22,479 bases of DNA, taken from a virus. Shown here one piece after another: positions 6,559 to 21,436 of the stretch. The translations under genes and the position numbers were made by a program. How positions within the stretch are numbered: position 1 is the stretch's first letter; the number at the start of each line of letters is the position of its first letter. The DNA is taken from positions 1 through 22,479 of the IMG/VR virus record IMGVR_UViG_3300018426_003336, one strand, 5' to 3'. The notes below the pieces were generated by a model that was not told where the DNA came from, searched no databases, and worked only from the letters and a program-made list of their open reading frames with translations.

Positions 6559-6632
6559 ATGGGTGTGGTGTAATGGTAACACGTCAGTCTCCAAAACTGA
6601 AGATAGGGGTTCGATTCCCTTCACCTGTGCCA
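6559..6632 (+). tRNA. tRNA-Trp (anticodon CCA)
   Basis: The anticodon arm is TCAGT-CTCCAAA-ACTGA with CCA at the anticodon. The D arm is GTGT-loop-ACAC, the T arm AGGGG-TTCGATT-CCCTT, and the acceptor ATGGGTG/CACCTGT pairs with two wobble pairs. The CCA end is encoded at 6630-6632. Confidence 0.9.
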
Positions 6633-6634
6633 AT

Positions 6635-6710
6635 GTTGGAGTGGCTCGAATAGTTAGGCACTGGATTGCAAATCCAGTTTATGTAGGTGCAAATCCTATC
6701 TCCAACTCCA
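6635..6710 (+). tRNA. tRNA-Cys (anticodon GCA)
   Basis: The acceptor GTTGGAG/CTCCAAC pairs perfectly, the anticodon arm is CTGGA-TTGCAAA-TCCAG, and the T arm GTAGG/CCTAT has the loop TGCAAAT. The CCA end is encoded. It lies two bases after tRNA-Trp, so the tRNAs must be cut from a common transcript. Confidence 0.9.
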
Positions 6711-6712
6711 GT

Positions 6713-6787
6713 GGTCTGTTAGTGAAGGGGTAATCACACTTGACTGTCTATCAGGAATCACGGGTTCGAATCCCGTACAGACCGCCA
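6713..6787 (+). tRNA. tRNA-Asp (anticodon GTC)
   Basis: The acceptor GGTCTGT/ACAGACC pairs perfectly, the anticodon loop CTGTCTA holds GTC, and the T arm CGGG-TTCGAAT-CCCG is canonical. CCA is encoded at 6785-6787. It is the third member of the tRNA cluster, two bases after tRNA-Cys. Confidence 0.92.
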
Positions 6788-7270: not shown

Positions 7271-7846
7271 ATGAAGACGATTTATATACACGGCGCTACT
7301 GCCAGCGAGCGCAGTTTTGCTTTTGTTCAAAAAAGTATCAAGGCAAAGAGTCCAATATACTTGAACTATGACAAAAGCACAACTGCAAAAGATAACCTAA
7401 CAGACATGTACAAGAGATTGGAAGATGAAAAAGGCCCATTCTTTTACATATGTCATAGTTTGGGTGGAGTATATGCAACTTATTTGCAAAAACAATTTCA
7501 AGACCGTAGCATAGGATGTGTTAGTCTAGCCACTCCATTTGGAGGTAGTGAAATTGCCAGTTGGGGCAGCATGCTAAACCCAGGATACCAATTGTTCAAA
7601 GACATTGCTCCTACCAGTAGTTTTATAAGAGACAGTAGACGAACACCAATTGCAATACCTTGGACACAGGTACTAACTACAGTGGGCGATGTTCCTTGGT
7701 TAAGTGGACGCAACGACGGTATTGTGACACACAAAAGCATGACATGCAGAACAGATGTAGAATACGAACAAGTGGACCGCAATCATTATGAAATTGTTCT
7801 TAGTCAAAGAGCGGTTGACATTATCAAAAAACGAATGTATAAATAA
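7271..7846 (+). CDS. Alpha/beta hydrolase (lipase/esterase-like)
   Basis: This 191-residue hydrolase begins MKTIYIHGATAS, with the HGA oxyanion-type motif at the front. It has the nucleophile elbow CHSLGG (Ser63), a likely acid Asp149 in SGRNDGIV and a likely base His172 in RNHYEIV. It lacks a signal peptide and is shorter than most lipases, so the lid is small or absent. The substrate is unknown. There is no ribosome site before the ATG, which touches a palindrome carrying a late-type promoter. Its 3' end contains the promoter of the tmRNA gene. Confidence 0.85.
   Translation: MKTIYIHGATASERSFAFVQKSIKAKSPIYLNYDKSTTAKDNLTDMYKRLEDEKGPFFYICHSLGGVYATYLQKQFQDRSIGCVSLATPFGGSEIASWGSMLNPGYQLFKDIAPTSSFIRDSRRTPIAIPWTQVLTTVGDVPWLSGRNDGIVTHKSMTCRTDVEYEQVDRNHYEIVLSQRAVDIIKKRMYK
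7815..7845 (+). promoter_or_regulatory. tmRNA promoter, sigma-70 type merged with late octamer
   Basis: TTGACA (7815-7820), 17 bases, TATAAA (7838-7843). The -10 box is also a perfect late octamer TATAAATA (7838-7845). The predicted start near 7851 matches the first base of the proposed tmRNA precursor. It lies within the end of the hydrolase gene. Confidence 0.85.
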
Positions 7847-7850
7847 ACTG

Positions 7851-8135
7851 TTAGCGTTGAAGCAACGTGGACATATACTGGACCTCGGGGCGGTACCGAG
7901 CAGCTCCAACATAAGTACATTTGATGAGTGTGTTTATGATGGGGCTGAAAATAGGATCGACAGGTGTGAAAGTGAAGTGGAGTTAACCGGTTGACAGCGT
8001 AATAGGTCAAAATTCACAATTGCAAATGACAATCGTGCGCCAGAAATGGCACTAGCTGCCTAATTAGGTAAGTGGGGGTTGGCAACACACCTAGCAACAG
8101 AAGGTGTTGCGCTAAGTTGGATTCTATATCATCGC
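7851..8135 (+). ncRNA. ssrA: Circularly permuted (two-piece type) tmRNA
   Basis: tmRNA rescues stalled ribosomes and tags the unfinished protein. The acceptor half comes first: T arm CTCGG-GGCGGTA-CCGAG (7884-7900) and acceptor 3' strand CAGCTCC (7901-7907). After a spacer of about 29 bases comes the coding half with acceptor 5' strand GGGGCTG (7941-7947); the two strands pair with one G-U. The tag frame at 8022-8063 reads ANDNRAPEMALAA then TAA, like alphaproteobacterial tags. A stem GCAACAC/GTGTTGC follows, then CGCTAA (8110-8115), which can pair with TTAGCG at 7851. The encoded end is AACA rather than ACCA. The 3' boundary is approximate. The permuted order is typical of alphaproteobacteria. 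Confidence 0.9.
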
Positions 8136-8153
8136 AGTCACGGAGACAAACAA

Positions 8154-8375
8154 ATGAAACCAAACAAATTTTTTGAATTGACTGTACAGGATATTGATAT
8201 CATTGAATCTGCGCTCAATGCCAAAGTAAGTCGTAGAACACATGCTGTAATACAAGGGCAAGGCGATAGAGAAAAACTAATACAAGAAGCCAATCAAATC
8301 AGAGATCTGTTGGGCAGACTGCACAATCAAAAGCATTGGTATCGTCCAAAAGATGATACCTATGTAAGCGGATAA
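8154..8375 (+). CDS. Small hypothetical protein after tmRNA
   Basis: This 73-residue protein starts at the ATG at 8154 with GGAG eight bases upstream. The open frame extends back into the tmRNA, which is not coding. The sequence MKPNKFFELTVQDIDIIESALNAKV resembles short phage proteins with a helical core (LIQEANQIRDLLGRLHNQKHW). Function is not recognised. A perfect 7-bp inverted repeat follows at 8378. Confidence 0.7.
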   Translation: MKPNKFFELTVQDIDIIESALNAKVSRRTHAVIQGQGDREKLIQEANQIRDLLGRLHNQKHWYRPKDDTYVSG

Positions 8376-8502: not shown

Positions 8503-9291
8503 ATGATGAAAAAACATTTACTAGCAATTCTTTTTGCTACTGCATCAACAGCGGCATTTGCTGAAGAAGCAACAGTAGCAACAGGACCAGTATTGTCAGG
8601 TGAAGTATCACTTGATTTTGCACAAGATGCAAACGACGACTGGGGCGGAACAATGGGTCTAGACCTAGGTGTTGATGTCACAGGACTAGCAACAGTTGAT
8701 CTAGACTTTGAAGCAGAAGATGGTGGCGCATTAACACTTGACACATGGAAAGTCGGAACTGAAGTAGGCGGTGTTGGCATTGCAATGGGCGACGACCTAG
8801 GCGTAATGCCAGGTGCAGAAGGTGAACAAACACTAGCAGCACCAGCAATGGCTGAAGCAATCAGCATCACAACAGGAAGTGCAACTGTAGCAGTTGGCTT
8901 TACTGATTGGAGCACAGACATCACAGACATCAGCAACGTACAAGGTGCTTACACACTTAGCCTAGCAGGGCTTGATGTGACTGCCGCTGGCGACTATAAC
9001 CTAGACACAGAAAACACTGTACTAGGTGGTAGTGTTGGTACAACAATGAATGATCTAGCACTAACAGGTGTTGTAACATATGATGTAGATGCAGAAGCAT
9101 TTGGCTACGAAGGTGTAGTTGGTGTAATGGGTCTAACAGCATATGTAAACGGTGACGACACAGATGCGTTCCAAAACGTAGGTGGTGAGTACAAGTATTC
9201 ATTGAACGGTGCTACACTAACAGCAGGTGCTAACTACAACGTTGACACAGAAGATTTTGCTCCAACAGCGGGCATCAGCTTTGCATTCTAA
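8503..9291 (+). CDS. Porin-like outer-membrane beta-barrel protein
   Basis: This 262-residue protein has a clear signal peptide (MMKKHLLAILFATASTAAFA, cut before EEATVA). The mature part is acidic, rich in Gly, Thr, Ala and Asp, with repeating alternating-hydrophobic strands such as VSLDFAQD, ATVDLDFEAED, ATVAVGFTDWS, GVVTYDVDAEA, and GANYNVDTEDFAPTAGISFAF. The terminal Phe preceded by alternating hydrophobics is the usual C-terminal signal of outer-membrane barrels. At about 242 mature residues it is smaller than classical 16-stranded porins. A strong AAGGA ribosome site, an operator-like promoter and a GAAA-loop terminator make it a single-gene unit. Its role could be nutrient entry or a receptor change in the infected cell. 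Confidence 0.8.
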   Translation: MMKKHLLAILFATASTAAFAEEATVATGPVLSGEVSLDFAQDANDDWGGTMGLDLGVDVTGLATVDLDFEAEDGGALTLDTWKVGTEVGGVGIAMGDDLGVMPGAEGEQTLAAPAMAEAISITTGSATVAVGFTDWSTDITDISNVQGAYTLSLAGLDVTAAGDYNLDTENTVLGGSVGTTMNDLALTGVVTYDVDAEAFGYEGVVGVMGLTAYVNGDDTDAFQNVGGEYKYSLNGATLTAGANYNVDTEDFAPTAGISFAF

Positions 9292-15288: not shown

Positions 15289-15862
15289 TTTGGAAACATT
15301 GGACACCAGTCCTAGATGCACCGTCCTCACAGTAGGCGGTGTAAAGTTTGATCCATACAGCAACACAGAACCTCACAGCGAATTTTATTTTCGTCTAGAC
15401 CTAGATGAACAAGATCGTTTGGGACGCACAGTCACAGACGATACCATTGAATGGTGGGCCAAACAGGATCCTCAAATAAAAGAAGAAGCCTTTAGAGAAG
15501 ATGATAGAGTCGGGCTGAAACACTTTCTAGACCATTTGACCAAGTGGATGGTTGGTGTCGATGTATTATGGGGTCATGGATATGGTTTTGATGTCACTAT
15601 CGTAGAAGATATGTATCGTCAATTGGCCACACCTATTCCTTGGAACTTTTGGCAAGTAAGAGATGGTAGAACATTTTTGAGCTTACTGCCAAGTGATCCT
15701 CGCAAGACAATGCAACAGGATCTACACAATGCACTTGCTGACAGCTACTATCAAGCAAAGGCAATCCAAATAGCATATGCTAAATATGACGAGTGGACTA
15801 CACAGGGATCGACCCACTATAAACATTCCGCCCCCTCATCCAACGAGGTAAAATATGGGTAA
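15266..15862 (+). CDS. DEDDh 3'-5' exonuclease, RNase AS/Rv2179c-like
   Basis: This 198-residue protein belongs to the DnaQ-like exonuclease superfamily. Exo I is MIDLETLDTSP (Asp8, Glu10), Exo II includes WGHGYGFDVTIVEDM, and Exo III is HNALADSYYQA, the DEDDh pattern. The phage subgroup related to Rv2179c degrades RNA; DNA is an alternative substrate. The start is taken as GTG at 15266 because GGAGG lies four bases upstream; the ATG at 15248 would place that site inside the gene, and ATG 15281 is too far away. The stop overlaps the QueD-like start by eight bases. Confidence 0.85.
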   Translation: MAIHAMIDLETLDTSPRCTVLTVGGVKFDPYSNTEPHSEFYFRLDLDEQDRLGRTVTDDTIEWWAKQDPQIKEEAFREDDRVGLKHFLDHLTKWMVGVDVLWGHGYGFDVTIVEDMYRQLATPIPWNFWQVRDGRTFLSLLPSDPRKTMQQDLHNALADSYYQAKAIQIAYAKYDEWTTQGSTHYKHSAPSSNEVKYG

Positions 15863-16304
15863 ACATCTATCAACAAAAACATACGGACACAACATTGGAC
15901 TGAGTGCCTGCTTTAGACAACCTAAAGCACACAGTCATTGCAGATTCCTGCATGGATACAGTTTGCAATTTCGTTTTACATTTGCAGCAAGTGAACTAGA
16001 CGAAAAGAACTGGGTAGTAGACTTTGGTGGACTAAAACCACTCAAAGCATGGCTTGAAGATACATTCGATCACAAAGTTGTATTGGACAATGATGATCCA
16101 GAAATGGCGACATTTGAACTATTACAAGAAAAAGGACTAGCAGAACTTACAATCTTAGATGGTGTAGGTGTTGAGAAATTTGCAGAGCATGCTTGTGAGT
16201 TTGCTGATAACCTTGTAAGAGAAATGACCAACGGACGTTGTCGTTGTGTTGAAGTAGAATGTGCAGAGCACGGAGCAAACAGTGCGATTTATATCAACCA
16301 GTGA
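15855..16304 (+). CDS. QueD-like 6-carboxytetrahydropterin synthase family protein
   Basis: This 149-residue protein is related to QueD and PTPS enzymes of 7-deazaguanine or pterin synthesis. Visible motifs: a zinc region HSHCRFLHGYS (His26, His28, Cys29, His33), WVVDFGGLK near 53-61, FDHKVVL near 71-77, and AEHGANS near the C-terminus. The usual first zinc His (AAH motif) is Phe here (SACF) and HGH is HGY, but His26 and His28 may replace them; this looks like an alphaproteobacterial subfamily. No QueE or QueC is present in this window. Products could serve DNA modification of the phage genome, as inference. Confidence 0.85.
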   Translation: MGKHLSTKTYGHNIGLSACFRQPKAHSHCRFLHGYSLQFRFTFAASELDEKNWVVDFGGLKPLKAWLEDTFDHKVVLDNDDPEMATFELLQEKGLAELTILDGVGVEKFAEHACEFADNLVREMTNGRCRCVEVECAEHGANSAIYINQ

Positions 16305-16533
16305 TTTAGAATGGTGTGCTAATTGGACACAGGACGATAGATACTATTGTACTGTGTTCATTAGAAGTGATCGTTTTAAAAAGCCCAAAGGTTTCCACAA
16401 GTTGCTTGAGGAACTGTTTGGTACAAAGTACGGTGGATTTAGATACGACCAGTATCGAAATGGATACGAGTGTTGGTTTCGCAATCAAGAAGATATGTTG
16501 ACATTCAAGTTATTGGCTAAAAATGGATATTAG
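16282..16533 (+). CDS. Small hypothetical protein, GTG start
   Basis: The GTG at 16282 with GGAG nine to twelve bases upstream gives 83 residues and overlaps the QueD-like gene by 23 bases. The sequence has a beta-like aromatic pattern (DLEWCANWTQDDRYYCTVF, FGTKYGGFRYDQYRNGYECWF), two or three cysteines and a charged middle. An ATG is lacking near the front, so the start is not certain. It overlaps the next gene by 11 bases. No family recognised. Confidence 0.6.
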   Translation: MRFISTSDLEWCANWTQDDRYYCTVFIRSDRFKKPKGFHKLLEELFGTKYGGFRYDQYRNGYECWFRNQEDMLTFKLLAKNGY

Positions 16534-16825
16534 TGAACAAATTGTACAAAAACTAAAAATGGTATATGATCCTGAGATAAGTATCAATGTATACGATCTC
16601 GGGTTGATATATGATATCGACGTGAAAGAATTTCCCAAGGTTAAAATAACGCACACACTTACCAGTGCATTTTGCCCTGCGGCAGATTTTATTATTTCAG
16701 ACATTCATGGTGCTACCATGAGTGTAGATGGTGTTGAAGATGTAGAAGTTATAACTACATTTGATCCGCCATTTGGCCCTTGGGCAATGAGTGAGGAAAC
16801 CAAAATGATATTAGGAGTTTGGTAA
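16523..16825 (+). CDS. MIP18/DUF59 family protein, SufT/PaaD-like
   Basis: This 100-residue protein matches the MIP18 family: YDPEISINVYDLGLIYDI near residues 15-32, THTLTSAFCPAADFI near 44-57 with Cys51, and a C-terminal TFDPPFGPWAMSEE near 79-92. Family members help mature iron-sulfur proteins (SufT) or the phenylacetyl-CoA oxygenase (PaaD). In this context, next to a ferredoxin and an A-type carrier, an iron-sulfur role is most likely. It is full length, overlaps the previous gene by 11 bases and joins the next by TAATG. Confidence 0.88.
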   Translation: MDISEQIVQKLKMVYDPEISINVYDLGLIYDIDVKEFPKVKITHTLTSAFCPAADFIISDIHGATMSVDGVEDVEVITTFDPPFGPWAMSEETKMILGVW

Positions 16826-17100
16826 TGAAATGGATTAAACAACTGTTTGGCATCAAAGATGAAGATGTACAACTGGGTGAAAAATTTGAAAATGCCAGTG
16901 CAACCAATGAGCTGGTGATTTCACCACGACAGGACACTGCTAAAAAGAAACAGAAACAAACCAAAGCAAGTCTAAGTAAATTGAGCAAAGTTCAAATCGA
17001 CGAACTAGCCAAAAATGAATTAGGAGTTGAGTTGGATCGCCGCAAGAAAAAAGACACCATGATCAGTGATTATCTTGCAGCACAAAAAGAGGCCAACTAA
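16825..17100 (+). CDS. Small protein with HeH/LEM-like C-terminus
   Basis: The ATG at 16825 overlaps the MIP18-like stop (TAATG) with TTAGGAG upstream, giving 91 residues. The front MKWIKQLFGIKDEDV is an amphipathic helix, then a lysine-rich linker (KKKQKQTKAS), then LSKVQIDELAKNELGVELDRR with KKKDTMISDYL, the typical pattern of small HeH/SAP-like helical domains seen in many phage proteins. It may bind nucleic acid or partner proteins; role unknown. Confidence 0.75.
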   Translation: MKWIKQLFGIKDEDVQLGEKFENASATNELVISPRQDTAKKKQKQTKASLSKLSKVQIDELAKNELGVELDRRKKKDTMISDYLAAQKEAN

Positions 17101-17103
17101 TAC

Positions 17104-17463
17104 ATGACATACATTGTAAACGATGCTTGCATCAAGTGCAAGTACACAGACTGTGTTGCGGTGTGTCCAGTAGACTGTTTTTACGAGGGTGAAAACATGC
17201 TGGTAATACATCCTGACGAATGCATTGATTGCGGTGTATGTGAACCGGAATGTCCAGCAGATGCAATCAAACCTGACACAGCACCTGGTGCAGACGATTG
17301 GGTTGACTTCAATCGCAAGTGGAGTGAAAAGTGGCCTAACATCAATGAGATGAAAGATCCATTGCCAGATGCAGATGCTTACAATCCCAGCAAAGGATAT
17401 ACAGGACCCAACAAGTGGCAAGAATACTTTGCTCCATTTGTTGATATAGAAGACCGCTCATAA
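17104..17463 (+). CDS. fdxA: Seven-iron ferredoxin (FdI/FdxA type)
   Basis: This 119-residue protein is an electron carrier with one [3Fe-4S] and one [4Fe-4S] cluster. Cysteines 9, 17 and 50 suit the first and 21, 40, 43 and 46 the second; an extra Cys12 and Cys25 match the Azotobacter FdI family pattern. The family string [27 protein letters not shown] and [14 protein letters not shown] is very well conserved. The C-terminal ~60 residues are the usual extension. Cytosolic. Neighbours MIP18-like and HesB-like suggest an iron-sulfur group, perhaps feeding electrons to the radical SAM enzyme at 1088 or to a reductase elsewhere. Confidence 0.95.
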
Positions 17464-17467
17464 ATAC
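17459..17467 (+). promoter_or_regulatory. Late-type promoter at end of ferredoxin gene
   Basis: CATAAATAC followed by TCCT, close to the classical T4 arrangement. It overlaps the ferredoxin stop. The predicted start near 17472 leaves a leader with GAGGAG for the nuclease gene. Confidence 0.65.
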
Positions 17468-17487
17468 TCCTAGCAGAGGAGAAAATT

Positions 17488-17913
17488 ATGAGTGATAAAC
17501 CCGCACCCTATAGTTATAGGGTAAAAAATATTGTAAAAATCATTGACGGTGATACATTTGATTGTATAATGGATTTAGGATTTGATGTATTGCTTGAAGC
17601 AAGAGTCCGCATGATGGGCATAGACACACCAGAGAGTAGAACTAGAGACCTAGAAGAAAAGAAGTTCGGATTACTTGCCAAACAATGGCTCAAAGATAAT
17701 CTACACGGAGAGATTGTAATCACAACCGCAGTAGACAATGAAAAGGGCAAGTTTGGTAGAATACTCGGAACTGTTTGGGCAGAAGGTAAAAACTTAAATC
17801 AATCAATGATTGATGAACATATGGCAGTTGCGTACTTTGGTCAAAGCAAAGACGATGTACAAAACGAACATATGAAAAACAGAGAAATATTAACTGAGCA
17901 AGGTAAAATATGA
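17488..17913 (+). CDS. Staphylococcal-nuclease-like (SNase) protein
   Basis: This 141-residue protein has the thermonuclease fold: VKIIDGDTFDC near 16-26 with calcium-binding Asp, RVRMMGIDTPES near 39-50 (Arg, Asp46, Glu49), and GKFGRILGTVW near 87-97 with the second catalytic Arg. These are the residues used by staphylococcal nuclease, so the enzyme is probably active on DNA or RNA. There is no signal peptide, so it would act in the cytoplasm, for example on host nucleic acid. GAGGAG precedes the ATG. The stop overlaps the next start (ATGA). Confidence 0.92.
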   Translation: MSDKPAPYSYRVKNIVKIIDGDTFDCIMDLGFDVLLEARVRMMGIDTPESRTRDLEEKKFGLLAKQWLKDNLHGEIVITTAVDNEKGKFGRILGTVWAEGKNLNQSMIDEHMAVAYFGQSKDDVQNEHMKNREILTEQGKI

Positions 17914-18215
17914 TACTAACAGTCACTGAATCCGCTAAAAAATACTTAACAACTATGATAGAACAACACAACAAACGTTATGTAAATCTATCAGTCAGAG
18001 GTGGCGGATGCAGTGGCTTTCAGTATGAATGGACATTCACTGATGAACCTGAAGGTACTGTGTTTGAAGACGTATTGAGTCTCGATCCAATGGCTGAAAT
18101 GTTTGTGTTTGGTTGTACAGTGGACTACATAAATGAGCTAGGCGGCAGTTATTTGACCGTAAAGAATCCCAACGCAACTGCATCATGTGGTTGTGGGGAA
18201 AGTTTCGCAGTTTAA
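17910..18215 (+). CDS. HesB/IscA-like A-type iron-sulfur carrier
   Basis: This 101-residue protein has the three conserved cysteines of A-type carriers: Cys34 in [10 protein letters not shown] and Cys93 and Cys95 in SCGCGESF. Such proteins hold and pass on iron-sulfur clusters to target enzymes. hesB-like genes are known in marine T4-like phages. The start is coupled to the nuclease stop by ATGA. With the MIP18-like gene and ferredoxin nearby it completes a compact iron-sulfur set. Full length for the family. Confidence 0.93.
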
Positions 18216-18226
18216 CGGAGGCGCAA

Positions 18227-19174
18227 ATGAAAATCATCTCGGGCAGTAGCAACCCTGCCTTTGCACAAAAGGTTGCTGAACATTGTTTTACTGATCTCGT
18301 TCCAGCAGATCTCAATCGGTTTAACGATGGTGAAATATGTGTAGAAGTTAAAGAGAACATTCGCGGTGCGGATGTTTTTTTATTGAACAGCACTTGTACA
18401 CCAGTCAACGAAAGTTTAATGGAATTGTTGATCATGATAGACACTGCCAAGCGTAGCAGTGCAAGACGTATTACCGCAGTAATTCCCTATTTTGGATATG
18501 CACGCCAAGATCGCAAAAGTGCAAGTCGCACTCCCATCACAGCAAAACTAGTGGCTGATTTGTTGACCAAAGCTGGAGCAGACAGAGTGCTTACAATGGA
18601 TTTACATGCAGGACAGATACAGGGATTTTTTGATATTCCTGTGGATGACTTAACAAGTCGTGTGGTATTTGCAAAGGACATCAAACGTAGTATTGGTATA
18701 ATAGATGATCCAAACGTACACCAACAAGGCACAGTTTTTGTAAGCCCTGATGCTGGAGGCGCAGTAAGAGCACGTAAGTTTGCTGACATGTTTGGTGGTG
18801 AAATTGCCATTGTTGACAAGCGCAGACCTCGTGCAGGTGTAAGCGAAGTTATGGCACTGATTGGAGATGTTAAAGGTAAACATGCAATATTGGTAGATGA
18901 TATTGTGGACAGCGGCGGCACACTGTGCAAAGCCGCAGATGCAATATTGGAAGCAGGTGCGCTCAGTGTTAGAGCTTATATCACACACGGTGTACTCAGC
19001 AACGGTGCTAGTAAAAAAATTGATGCAAGTAGTTTAGAAGAGCTTGTAATTAGTGACAGTATACCGTATAATGGAACAAGTAAGAAAGTAAGACAAGTCA
19101 GTGTTGCACCTTTGTTTGGTGAAGCAATGCGTAGGATTACCAACGAAGAATCAGTGAGCAGTTTATTTCAATGA
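18227..19174 (+). CDS. prs: Ribose-phosphate pyrophosphokinase (PRPP synthetase)
   Basis: This enzyme makes PRPP from ribose 5-phosphate and ATP, the entry point for purine, pyrimidine, NAD and histidine synthesis. The 315-residue length equals bacterial Prs. Motifs: DGEICVE near 34-40, the flexible loop [11 protein letters not shown] at 91-101, [11 protein letters not shown] near 125-135, and the PRPP-binding [13 protein letters not shown] at 221-233. The start is the ATG at 18227 with a perfect GGAGG; the frame upstream belongs to the end of the HesB-like gene. The stop overlaps the aldolase start by four bases (ATGA), so the two are coupled. Confidence 0.96.
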
Positions 19175-19965
19175 CAACATTTATAGCGGCAATAGATCAT
19201 AGTGGCGGAAGCACAGGCGGTGTACTAGAACGCTATGGTCAAGAATACACAGAACAAAACAAAATGGAACTGGTGCATGCTATGCGTTTGCGCATGGTAA
19301 ATCACACAGCGTTTACCGGTAATCAAATCAGTCATGCTATCTTATACAAAGACACTGTGGACAGAGGTATGGTGCCTGTACTAGAATCAAAAGGTATTCG
19401 TGCTATTCTAAAGATCGACAGTGGTTGTGCTGGGGATGGTTCACTCAAACAATTTCCTGTAAAGCAAATGTGCGAATATGCAGTTGCCAATGATTGTGTT
19501 GGTACCAAGATGCGCAGTATTGTAAAAAGTACATCCATGGTAGATCTAGTTGTGGAGCAACAGTTTGTGCTTGCAGGTACAATTGCAGAACATGGATTGA
19601 TTCCTATTATTGAACCGGAAGTTCCTATTGACCATCCTCAAAAAGAAGAAGTGGAAGAAAAACTTAGAAAAAGTCTAATCAAACACTTGAAAGATTTCAA
19701 CAAAAAGTGTATACTAAAACTAACGCTACCGGAACGACCTAACCTGTACAGAGATTTGTTGCTGTATAATTGTGTACAAAAGATTGTAGGGTTGAGTGGT
19801 GGCTATACAACTGAAGAAGCATGTAGACGTTTGAGCATGAACGCAGACATGAGTGCTAGTTTTAGTAGAGCACTCAGTGAAGGTTTGTATGTGCATCAAA
19901 CAGACGATGAATTCGATCAAAGATTAGGACAAAACATCCAAGATATCTTGGAAGCGTGTAGATAA
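19171..19965 (+). CDS. fda: Class I fructose-bisphosphate aldolase (FbaB/Staphylococcus type)
   Basis: This 264-residue enzyme cleaves fructose 1,6-bisphosphate to triose phosphates. It matches the bacterial class I group with [11 protein letters not shown] at 7-17, [11 protein letters not shown] near 40-50, GTKMRSIVK near 111-119, [10 protein letters not shown] near 127-136, IIEPEVPID near 146-154 and [12 protein letters not shown] with the likely Schiff-base Lys183. It is about 30 residues shorter than the S. aureus enzyme, mainly at the ends. The coupled start with prs (ATGA) points to joint use of host carbon for nucleotide supply, as inference. Confidence 0.92.
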
Positions 19966-19976
19966 AAGAGGTATAA

Positions 19977-20384
19977 ATGTCACAAGTAGATTTAAACAAA
20001 TACAAAGACTTTGTAGAGAAAGTCACCAGCAGTCAAAGCAATGCATTTGGTGCACTGCACAGCAGAATGATTGAATTGAATGATGAAGGTGTGAATCCTT
20101 CACTGCTACTCACAGCTAGTATTGGCATGGCCAGTGAAGGCGGAGAGTTTAGTGAGATTGTAAAGAAGTGTGTGTTTCAAGGCAAACCCATGAACGAAGA
20201 AACAATCTTTCACATGAAGCGTGAGCTGGGTGATATCATGTGGTACTGGGTAAATGCATGCCGTGCAATTGGAGAAGACCCAAACGAAGTGGTAGCAGAA
20301 AATGTACGCAAACTAGAAAGTCGTTATCCAGGCGGCAGTTTTGACGTTTATTACAGCGAAAATAGACAACAAGGTGATCTCTAA
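19977..20384 (+). CDS. MazG-like nucleotide pyrophosphohydrolase
   Basis: This 135-residue protein carries the MazG-like pattern: SEGGEFSEIVKK near residues 53-64, FHMKRELGDIMWYW near 79-92, and the end KLESRYPGGSFD. The glutamates and aspartate bind magnesium; the family hydrolyses nucleoside triphosphates to monophosphates. MazG-like proteins are frequent in marine T4-like phages, where they may adjust nucleotide or alarmone pools. AGAGG precedes the ATG. A terminator follows 12 bases after the stop, closing the metabolic run that starts at about 15855. Confidence 0.92.
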   Translation: MSQVDLNKYKDFVEKVTSSQSNAFGALHSRMIELNDEGVNPSLLLTASIGMASEGGEFSEIVKKCVFQGKPMNEETIFHMKRELGDIMWYWVNACRAIGEDPNEVVAENVRKLESRYPGGSFDVYYSENRQQGDL

Positions 20385-20396
20385 TATAAGTAAAAG

Positions 20397-20426
20397 CGTC
20401 AGGTCTAGTCCGCCTGACGTTTTATT
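20397..20426 (+). terminator. Rho-independent terminator
   Basis: A perfect 7-bp stem CGTCAGG/CCTGACG with a nine-base loop is followed by TTTTATT. It ends the run of metabolic genes. Confidence 0.8.
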
Positions 20427-20432
20427 GTGAGC

Positions 20433-20449
20433 GACGGGGTAAAGCCGTC
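20433..20449 (+). promoter_or_regulatory. Leader hairpin before phosphate permease gene
   Basis: GACGG-GGTAAAG-CCGTC forms a 5-bp stem six bases after the terminator T run, followed by AAGGAG before the ATG at 20465. No sigma-70 or late promoter is visible between the terminator and the gene, so the permease may depend on read-through. No riboswitch family is recognised. Confidence 0.4.
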
Positions 20450-20464
20450 AAGCAAGGAGAAAAA

Positions 20465-21436
20465 ATGGAACTACTCACGCTATGGAGCCTTGTTGGCTTC
20501 TTGCTTGCTGCCTATGCAGTTATAGCAAACGATTCAGTACAAACTCTCGGTACATGGATGGCATCAAACAATGAGAGATTTAACTACAAAACATTATGGG
20601 CCGCTGCCAGTGCAGTATTGCTTGCCACACTTTGGTATGGTTGGGCAATGAATGGCGGCGACATCAGCTATGGGCGACTAAACAAAATACCTTGGCAAGA
20701 AGTACAATGGTATCATGCAGCCGCCCCTGCTATACTGGTTGCACTAACACGTATTGGTGTGCCAGTATCAACATCATTCCTAGTTCTGTCAGTGTTCGCA
20801 AGTACATTTGTGCTTGAAAAGATGCTGATGAAATCAATCATGGGCTACGGTGTTGCAGCCGCATTTGCATATGTGGTATGGTTTGCAATACACAAATACT
20901 TTAGCCGTTGGTATGACGAAACACAACCTGTTAGCGAAGGCAACAAAAACTTCTGGCGCATTGCACAATGGATTGCAACTGCCGGATTATGGTGGACTTG
21001 GCTAAGTCATGACATTGCAAACATTGCAGTGTTCCTTCCACGTGAAGTGCCAATGGATTTAATGATTTTCATTTCGTTGGTATTTGTTGGCGGATTGTTC
21101 TTTATGTTTAGAGAACGTGGCGGCAAGATACAACAGATTGTACTAGAAAAACACAACACTAGATATGTGCGCAGTGCTACACTGATTGACTTGTTTTATT
21201 GGTTGTGCTTGTACTTCTTCAAAGAGCTCAACGACATCCCTATGAGTACAACATGGGTATTCGTTGGTTTGCTTGCAGGTAGAGAACTTGCAATGGCTTC
21301 TTACTTTGGTAAGAAGAAAACAAAATCAGTGTTTCCATTGGTTGCCAAAGACTTTGGCAAAATGATGGTTGGACTTGGTGCATCAGTGGCACTTGTATTA
21401 GCAATCCACTATGTTATCTTACCTAACGGACTATAA
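20465..21436 (+). CDS. PiT/PHO4-like inorganic phosphate permease
   Basis: This 323-residue membrane protein has about eight to ten hydrophobic helices. It carries both halves of the inverted-repeat PiT signature in diverged form: AYAVIANDSVQTLGT (residues 16-30) with GVPVSTSFLVLS in the first half, and LSHDIANIAVFLPRE with IPMSTTWVFVGLLAGRE in the second. These match the GANDVANAFGT and PVSTTHA motifs that bind phosphate and cation. PiT proteins bring in phosphate with H+ or Na+. The length is shorter than E. coli PitA (about 500), as in compact forms. Phosphate limits phage DNA synthesis in the sea, so uptake during infection is a plausible role. Confidence 0.85.
   Translation: MELLTLWSLVGFLLAAYAVIANDSVQTLGTWMASNNERFNYKTLWAAASAVLLATLWYGWAMNGGDISYGRLNKIPWQEVQWYHAAAPAILVALTRIGVPVSTSFLVLSVFASTFVLEKMLMKSIMGYGVAAAFAYVVWFAIHKYFSRWYDETQPVSEGNKNFWRIAQWIATAGLWWTWLSHDIANIAVFLPREVPMDLMIFISLVFVGGLFFMFRERGGKIQQIVLEKHNTRYVRSATLIDLFYWLCLYFFKELNDIPMSTTWVFVGLLAGRELAMASYFGKKKTKSVFPLVAKDFGKMMVGLGASVALVLAIHYVILPNGL

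Follow-up and report, generated by a model that had tools for sequence, protein, structure and literature searches.

The locus described here bears on why phages carry tmRNA genes, through the promoter that stands in front of the gene. The stretch of DNA that we analysed, called the window below, is an entire IMG/VR virus record (IMGVR_UViG_3300018426_003336; 22,479 nucleotides, 22.5 kb) and a marine phage contig. A sequence-only reading had proposed that it holds a circularly permuted tmRNA gene, taken over from the phage's host and expressed throughout infection. We ask what the gene is, where it came from, and when and for what it might be used.

The permuted tmRNA gene and its fold

ARAGORN reports a permuted tmRNA (tmRNA*) at 7818-8154 with the tag ANDNRAPEMALAA, and two Rfam covariance models find the same gene: RF01849 (alpha_tmRNA) at 7811-8113 with 112.8 bits (E 2e-30, gathering threshold 50) and RF04321 (tmRNA_permuted) at 7850-8063 with 113.1 bits (gathering threshold 47). 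These three results confirm the order, coordinates and tag of the alpha-type gene that had been claimed, and the check proposed for it, acceptance by the alpha-tmRNA model, came out in its favor. The marks of an alpha-type permuted tmRNA are present: a covariance score above gathering, an acceptor piece that precedes the coding piece, an acceptor stem of 7 bp with G3:U70, and a tag frame with a stop codon and an Ala-Ala end. The pairing of the acceptor strands also holds as claimed, GGGGCUG at 7941-7947 with CAGCUCC at 7901-7907. The features of the locus are as follows.

6559-6787, plus strand: genes for tRNA-Trp, tRNA-Cys and tRNA-Asp, with CCA encoded in all three (ARAGORN)
7271-7846, plus strand: open reading frame (ORF) upstream of the tmRNA, with the promoter inside its last codons; the tmRNA comes next in relatives with enough sequence
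7815-7820, plus strand: -35 box TTGACA, exact consensus, kept at 16-18 nt spacing before 42 of the 77 phage tmRNA genes compared
7838-7845, plus strand: T4-type late octamer TATAAATA at the -10 position, conserved across phage tmRNA genes
7850-7911, plus strand: acceptor piece (P2 3' strand, T arm, acceptor 3' strand, A73, encoded ACA), from Rfam alignments and compensatory changes; 5' end approximate (predicted)
7884-7900, plus strand: T stem and loop, 7884-7888 pairing with 7896-7900; in relatives, three of five pairs have changes in both strands and all stay paired
7901-7907, plus strand: 3' strand of the acceptor stem, with U70 at 7905
7909, plus strand: position C74, here A, which makes the encoded end ACA
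7912-7940, plus strand: intervening segment, predicted to be removed; cleavage inferred by comparison with the Rfam permuted models
7941-7947, plus strand: 5' strand of the acceptor stem and start of the coding piece (Rfam, compensatory changes)
8022-8063, plus strand: tag reading frame ANDNRAPEMALAA and stop codon (ARAGORN, Rfam)
8076-8110, plus strand: 3' pseudoknot, 8082-8088 with 8104-8110 and 8076-8079 with 8089-8092
8154-8375, plus strand: small ORF downstream of the tmRNA

G3:U70 and A73 are found in all 89 readable phage tmRNA loci, some of which are the same contig fetched twice. Compensatory changes among the phage relatives support the acceptor stem, the T stem and the 3' pseudoknot. 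In an alignment of ten phage sequences every position of the acceptor and T stems is paired, with six pairs changed on both sides and a covariation score of 0.54, compared with 0.14 in shuffles; none of 500 shuffles scored as high, but the aligned relatives share kinship, so such counts are not probabilities. For the pseudoknot, 100% of the cells are paired in 11 sequences and four pairs are changed on both sides, in an alignment from which one unpaired base after GAA was omitted by hand in the window and in loci L016 and L049. Slid controls fell far below the observed covariation values for both the stems and the pseudoknot, and the tmRNA fold looks to be maintained by selection.

The gene's 3' end had been read as encoding AACA, so that CCA would have to be added. 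The letters are indeed there, A73 followed by ACA, but as a feature of the gene they reduce to a private substitution at 7909. The viral locus L020 differs from the window at 9 of 10,930 bases (99.92% identity), and 7909 is among them, A in the window and C in L020. CCA is encoded in 88 of the 89 readable phage tmRNAs, the window being the sole exception, and this near-universality is not a selection effect, since the T-arm pattern that gathered many of the loci left base 74 open. An encoded CCA is usual but not required in alpha-type permuted tmRNA (PMC11915505); the window has ACA where its relatives have CCA. Because L020, the other readable phage tmRNAs and the window's own three tRNAs all encode CCA, the ACA end is, judging from these comparisons, a private variant or a sequence error and not a trait of the lineage. 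One might suppose that the change of C74 to A has left this copy non-functional, as the only record of 89 without CCA, but this is quite improbable: two of 24 cellular tmRNA genes likewise lack an exact encoded CCA (one CCT, one CCC), 7909 may be a sequencing error as one of so few differences from L020, and the host CCA-adding enzyme, which can rebuild a tRNA-like 3' end after trimming, could restore it.

Phage setting and ancestry

The gene lies within a phage genome, as the sequence-only reading had it. Besides being a virus record, the window encodes a virion protein (phrog_1645) with homologues in cyanophages and in Puniceispirillum phage HMO-2011, and it is collinear over its full length with a 172,409-bp viral contig, G001. 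That it could instead be a piece of bacterial chromosome might be argued from its numerous metabolic genes, but against the virus record, the virion protein and the collinearity with a 172-kb phage contig this is extremely improbable. G001 encodes a T4-type DNA polymerase, ribonucleotide reductase, clamp loader, endolysin, PhoH and virion proteins, and it retains the tmRNA with an identical tag; ARAGORN finds zero tRNA genes in it. G001 may be incomplete, because the scan of its proteins turned up no terminase, capsid or gp55, and a search of it with the structural, late-sigma and terminase proteins of Methylophilales phage Melnitz gave a clamp-loader-type protein as the sole match. Among 50,697 phage records there was no near DNA match to the window.

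The neighboring genes offer a few observations of their own. A GHSLGG-like motif in the upstream ORF suggests a hydrolase fold for its predicted product, which has zero Pfam or PHROG matches, and the small downstream ORF has neither a Pfam or PHROG match nor a phage homologue. Close downstream of the tmRNA, 8503-9291 encodes a secreted, porin-like protein for which a Pfam search gave no match; its relatives occupy at least 25 viral loci, and in several of these a permuted tmRNA also lies nearby. A run of metabolic genes occupies 15855-21436 (PTPS/QueD-like, FeS assembly, ferredoxin, HesB-type, PRPP synthetase, class I aldolase-like, MazG).

Did the phage take this RNA from its present host, as had been suggested? 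The T-arm pattern matched at least 120 viral stretches; ARAGORN reads most of the fetched viral loci as permuted tmRNA, with highly diverse tags. The exact tag ANDNRAPEMALAA is encoded in 13 viral contigs and matched none of 84,980 species genomes. A midpoint-rooted tree was built from 40 cellular and 46 phage-side sequences, L197 among the latter coming from a metagenome bin; the molecule is short, support is weak on many branches, and the cellular side is a sample. The window falls within a group of 47 tips, two of them cellular, with support 0.976; its thirteen nearest other tips are all phage, and the nearest cellular tip lies at a distance of 1.37. A recent capture would make a cellular tmRNA the closest relative, and among the sampled cells this is not what we see, the best cellular match to the window's tmRNA being 72% over 161 nt. 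The phage-dominated clade and the distribution of the tag, as far as these sequences go, speak against recent capture from a host, and they do not name the ancestral host. Comparing tags and sequences to identify the host, as had been proposed, did not succeed: the exact tag had no match in the species genomes, and a search of 385 alphaproteobacterial genomes gave only weak matches.

A looser tag pattern, tried for the same purpose and rejected, gave four matches, two of them on contigs that share genes with G001: L197 (PBPT01000016.1, binned as Neomarinimicrobiota) and L198 (PALK01000009.1, binned as Rickettsiales). Both carry phage-type tmRNA tags; from their gene content they look like misbinned phage contigs, and they could mislead tmRNA databases. 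The phage-dominated clade also comes with the caution that some bin-derived "bacterial" tmRNA genes are phage. Among the other viral loci, six permuted tmRNAs (L127, L131, L105, L136, L121 and L073) have very long or odd called tags, one example being AKKSTTFASILPVKVERVSLVQEALAASA, whose end is not Ala-Ala. Rhodobacter phage RcSimone-Hastad (L532, 31455-33035) and Phaeobacter phage MD18 (L004) have a permuted tmRNA in their DNA that is unannotated in the deposited records.

A composite promoter in front of the tmRNA

The window's promoter reads TTGACA-N17-TATAAATA. The sequence-only reading had described a sigma-70 element combined with a perfect late octamer, and this is borne out by a -35 box joined to TATAAATA that is conserved across many phages. 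With the exact octamer and at most one mismatch to TTGACA required, the composite stands before 42 of the 77 non-redundant phage tmRNA genes whose upstream sequence is long enough, and before none of 41 cellular ones; the spacers differ, and the spacing is nearly always 17 nt. About half of the compared phage tmRNA genes, such as that of Mosig, lack it. In 39 unique phage promoters, anchored for this comparison on TTGAC and TA only, positions 3-8 of the octamer read TAAATA in 97-100%. The composite occurs once each in G001, G004, G008, G009 and G012, always at the tmRNA, and reversed control patterns gave zero matches. Sites away from a tmRNA are present at G002:25181, G002:46816, Melnitz 10881 and three places in Sinorhizobium phage Phosso. 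Of 113 composite sites assessed in IMG/VR, 18 are followed by a permuted tmRNA, compared with 0 of 120 shifted-control sites.

Both the -35 box and the octamer lie inside the 3' end of the upstream ORF. The four codons under the promoter elements are invariant in seven homologues of this ORF, whereas just 16% of the codons that encode invariant residues are themselves invariant, and in L013 the octamer is retained even though the stop codon under its overlap is lost. The number of octamers in the window is by itself not significant (three sites with 1.3 expected, and 15 of 100 shuffles reach three), so the case for the octamer rests on the comparison with relatives. Upstream of G001 genes, TATAAATA is enriched over shuffles (6 compared with 1.4), as are ATAAATA (19 compared with 5.8) and GGTTGACA (6 compared with 0.3). 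We found no description of a composite promoter at phage tmRNA genes in the open-access literature, and the conserved promoter appears to be a new element; the permuted tmRNA in phage is itself already published.

The octamer is the published T4 late consensus, recognized with gp55 (PMC10132071), and it stands at 7838-7845 near the predicted transcription start, as a T4-type late promoter should. gp55 is present in the tmRNA-bearing G007-G012, Melnitz and Phosso, and it was not found in the window or in G001-G006, contigs that may be incomplete. Late use of the composite promoter in the window's lineage is likely from this pattern, but it stays putative because gp55 was not found in G001-G006. 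The octamer could also be just a variant sigma-70 -10 element with no late function. TATAAA agrees with the -10 consensus at five of six positions, and the failure to find gp55 in the window's closest relatives fits this alternative too. We nevertheless consider it rather unlikely, since the last two bases of the octamer, which no sigma-70 -10 hexamer would reach, do not vary in the 39 promoters, position 6 is A in 97% of these where ten other TTGACA promoters in G001 have T in 90%, and other G001 genes, too, show an excess of the octamer upstream.

Proposed function and known systems

Our main reading, to which we assign a probability of roughly 0.8, is that the locus encodes a two-piece, alpha-type tmRNA, long carried by phages, that performs trans-translation and tagging with host SmpB, and that the composite promoter has it transcribed both early and late. 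The gene order, fold, identity elements, tag frame, promoter conservation and phage context on which this builds were observed here; processing, alanine charging, use of SmpB, degradation and dual timing we infer from sequence. Processing would split the transcript into an acceptor and a coding piece joined by pairing, and host AlaRS would charge the RNA with alanine through G3:U70. SmpB was found in none of the 13 phage records searched and must therefore come from the host. Most likely, the RNA and host SmpB would then release ribosomes stalled on broken messages during infection, as in ordinary trans-translation, and peptides to which ANDNRAPEMALAA is added would go to Clp-type degradation by host proteases. 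The promoter's sigma-70 -35 box and T4-type late octamer would provide for transcription early and late in infection, sustaining the supply of tmRNA once host-type transcription fades. Counting against this reading are the failure to find SmpB in the phage records or gp55 in the nearest relative, the window's own altered CCA and the presence of the composite in only about half of the genes.

Two other uses of such an RNA have to be weighed. In the mycobacteriophage DS6A, the gene consists of little beyond a tRNA-like domain, and a molecule of this type was reported as a strong inhibitor of tmRNA, perhaps by titrating SmpB (PMC4131195). A phage tmRNA might thus act as a decoy, titrating host SmpB or blocking the host's own tmRNA, and the failure to find phage SmpB in the 13 records would suit it, but the window's RNA has a full tag frame with a stop and an LAA-type end and a conserved pseudoknot in its coding piece, all unneeded by a decoy, which makes this highly improbable. 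It is also possible that the main use is tagging and breakdown of host proteins early in infection, with recycling of amino acids, and not ribosome recovery. This was put forward for Melnitz on the basis of an early promoter (PMC9004378), and among the genes of G001 is one for a ClpA-type unfoldase whose IGF motif is of the ClpP-docking kind; yet the conserved late octamer speaks against expression at the early stage only and eight of nine tested ClpA phages lack a permuted tmRNA, and we regard this use as unlikely.

The unfoldase gene (G001:61965-64205; L191:2265-4502) has IGF at the position of the IGL ClpP-docking loop in E. coli ClpA, and it adjoins a DnaJ-like ORF. Full-length ClpA and permuted tmRNA occur together in G001, G003, G011 and Phosso, but given the eight of nine, a coupling of the two is only a lead.

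Returning to trans-translation under a dual-use promoter, the near-uniqueness of the composite to the tmRNA in several genomes suggests that this RNA is wanted throughout infection and not early only. We lean, by a little over even odds, toward a wider picture: an old line of permuted tmRNA, carried by phages and common to many aquatic ones, with a dedicated promoter in which a T4 late octamer is joined at exact spacing to a sigma-70 -35 box. Such a promoter, which in several phages is found at no other gene, would keep rescue going from host-type to late-type transcription.

Among known systems, the tmRNAs of mycobacteriophages (Bxz1 type) and Streptomyces phages are likewise phage-encoded but belong with the unpermuted form, and they are not close to the window in sequence; the Streptomyces phage genes match an aquatic-phage tmRNA across only about 90 bases. 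Alphaproteobacterial tmRNA (RF01849, Caulobacter type) shares with the window the gene order, T arm, G3:U70, an ANDN-type tag start and a 3' region with GCAACAGAA, but the cellular genes mostly score 200-310 bits where the window scores 113, fall in another clade of the tree and have the composite promoter in 0 of 41 cases. Pelagibacter phage Mosig EXVC030M, whose host is an alphaproteobacterium, has a permuted ssrA like the window's, but its called tag is GEDNFALAA and it lacks the composite promoter. Buchholz 2022 surveyed 18,146 phage genomes and found 53 two-piece tmRNA structures, 50 of them in marine or aquatic phages, described the permuted tmRNA of Melnitz, connected that gene with Alphaproteobacteria and classed its promoter as early (PMC9004378); the window's tmRNA is a further member of these published phage-borne permuted tmRNAs. 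Melnitz, an aquatic phage that has T4-type genes, likewise carries an ssrA of the alpha-type permuted kind. This ssrA differs in its tag (ANDNYVPVDYALAA) and in a glutamine riboswitch that overlaps the 3' region of the tmRNA, of which the window has none at the Rfam gathering threshold. Its promoter is the same composite, TTGACA-N17-TATAAATA, and since Melnitz is cultured, the timing of the tmRNA can be measured there directly.
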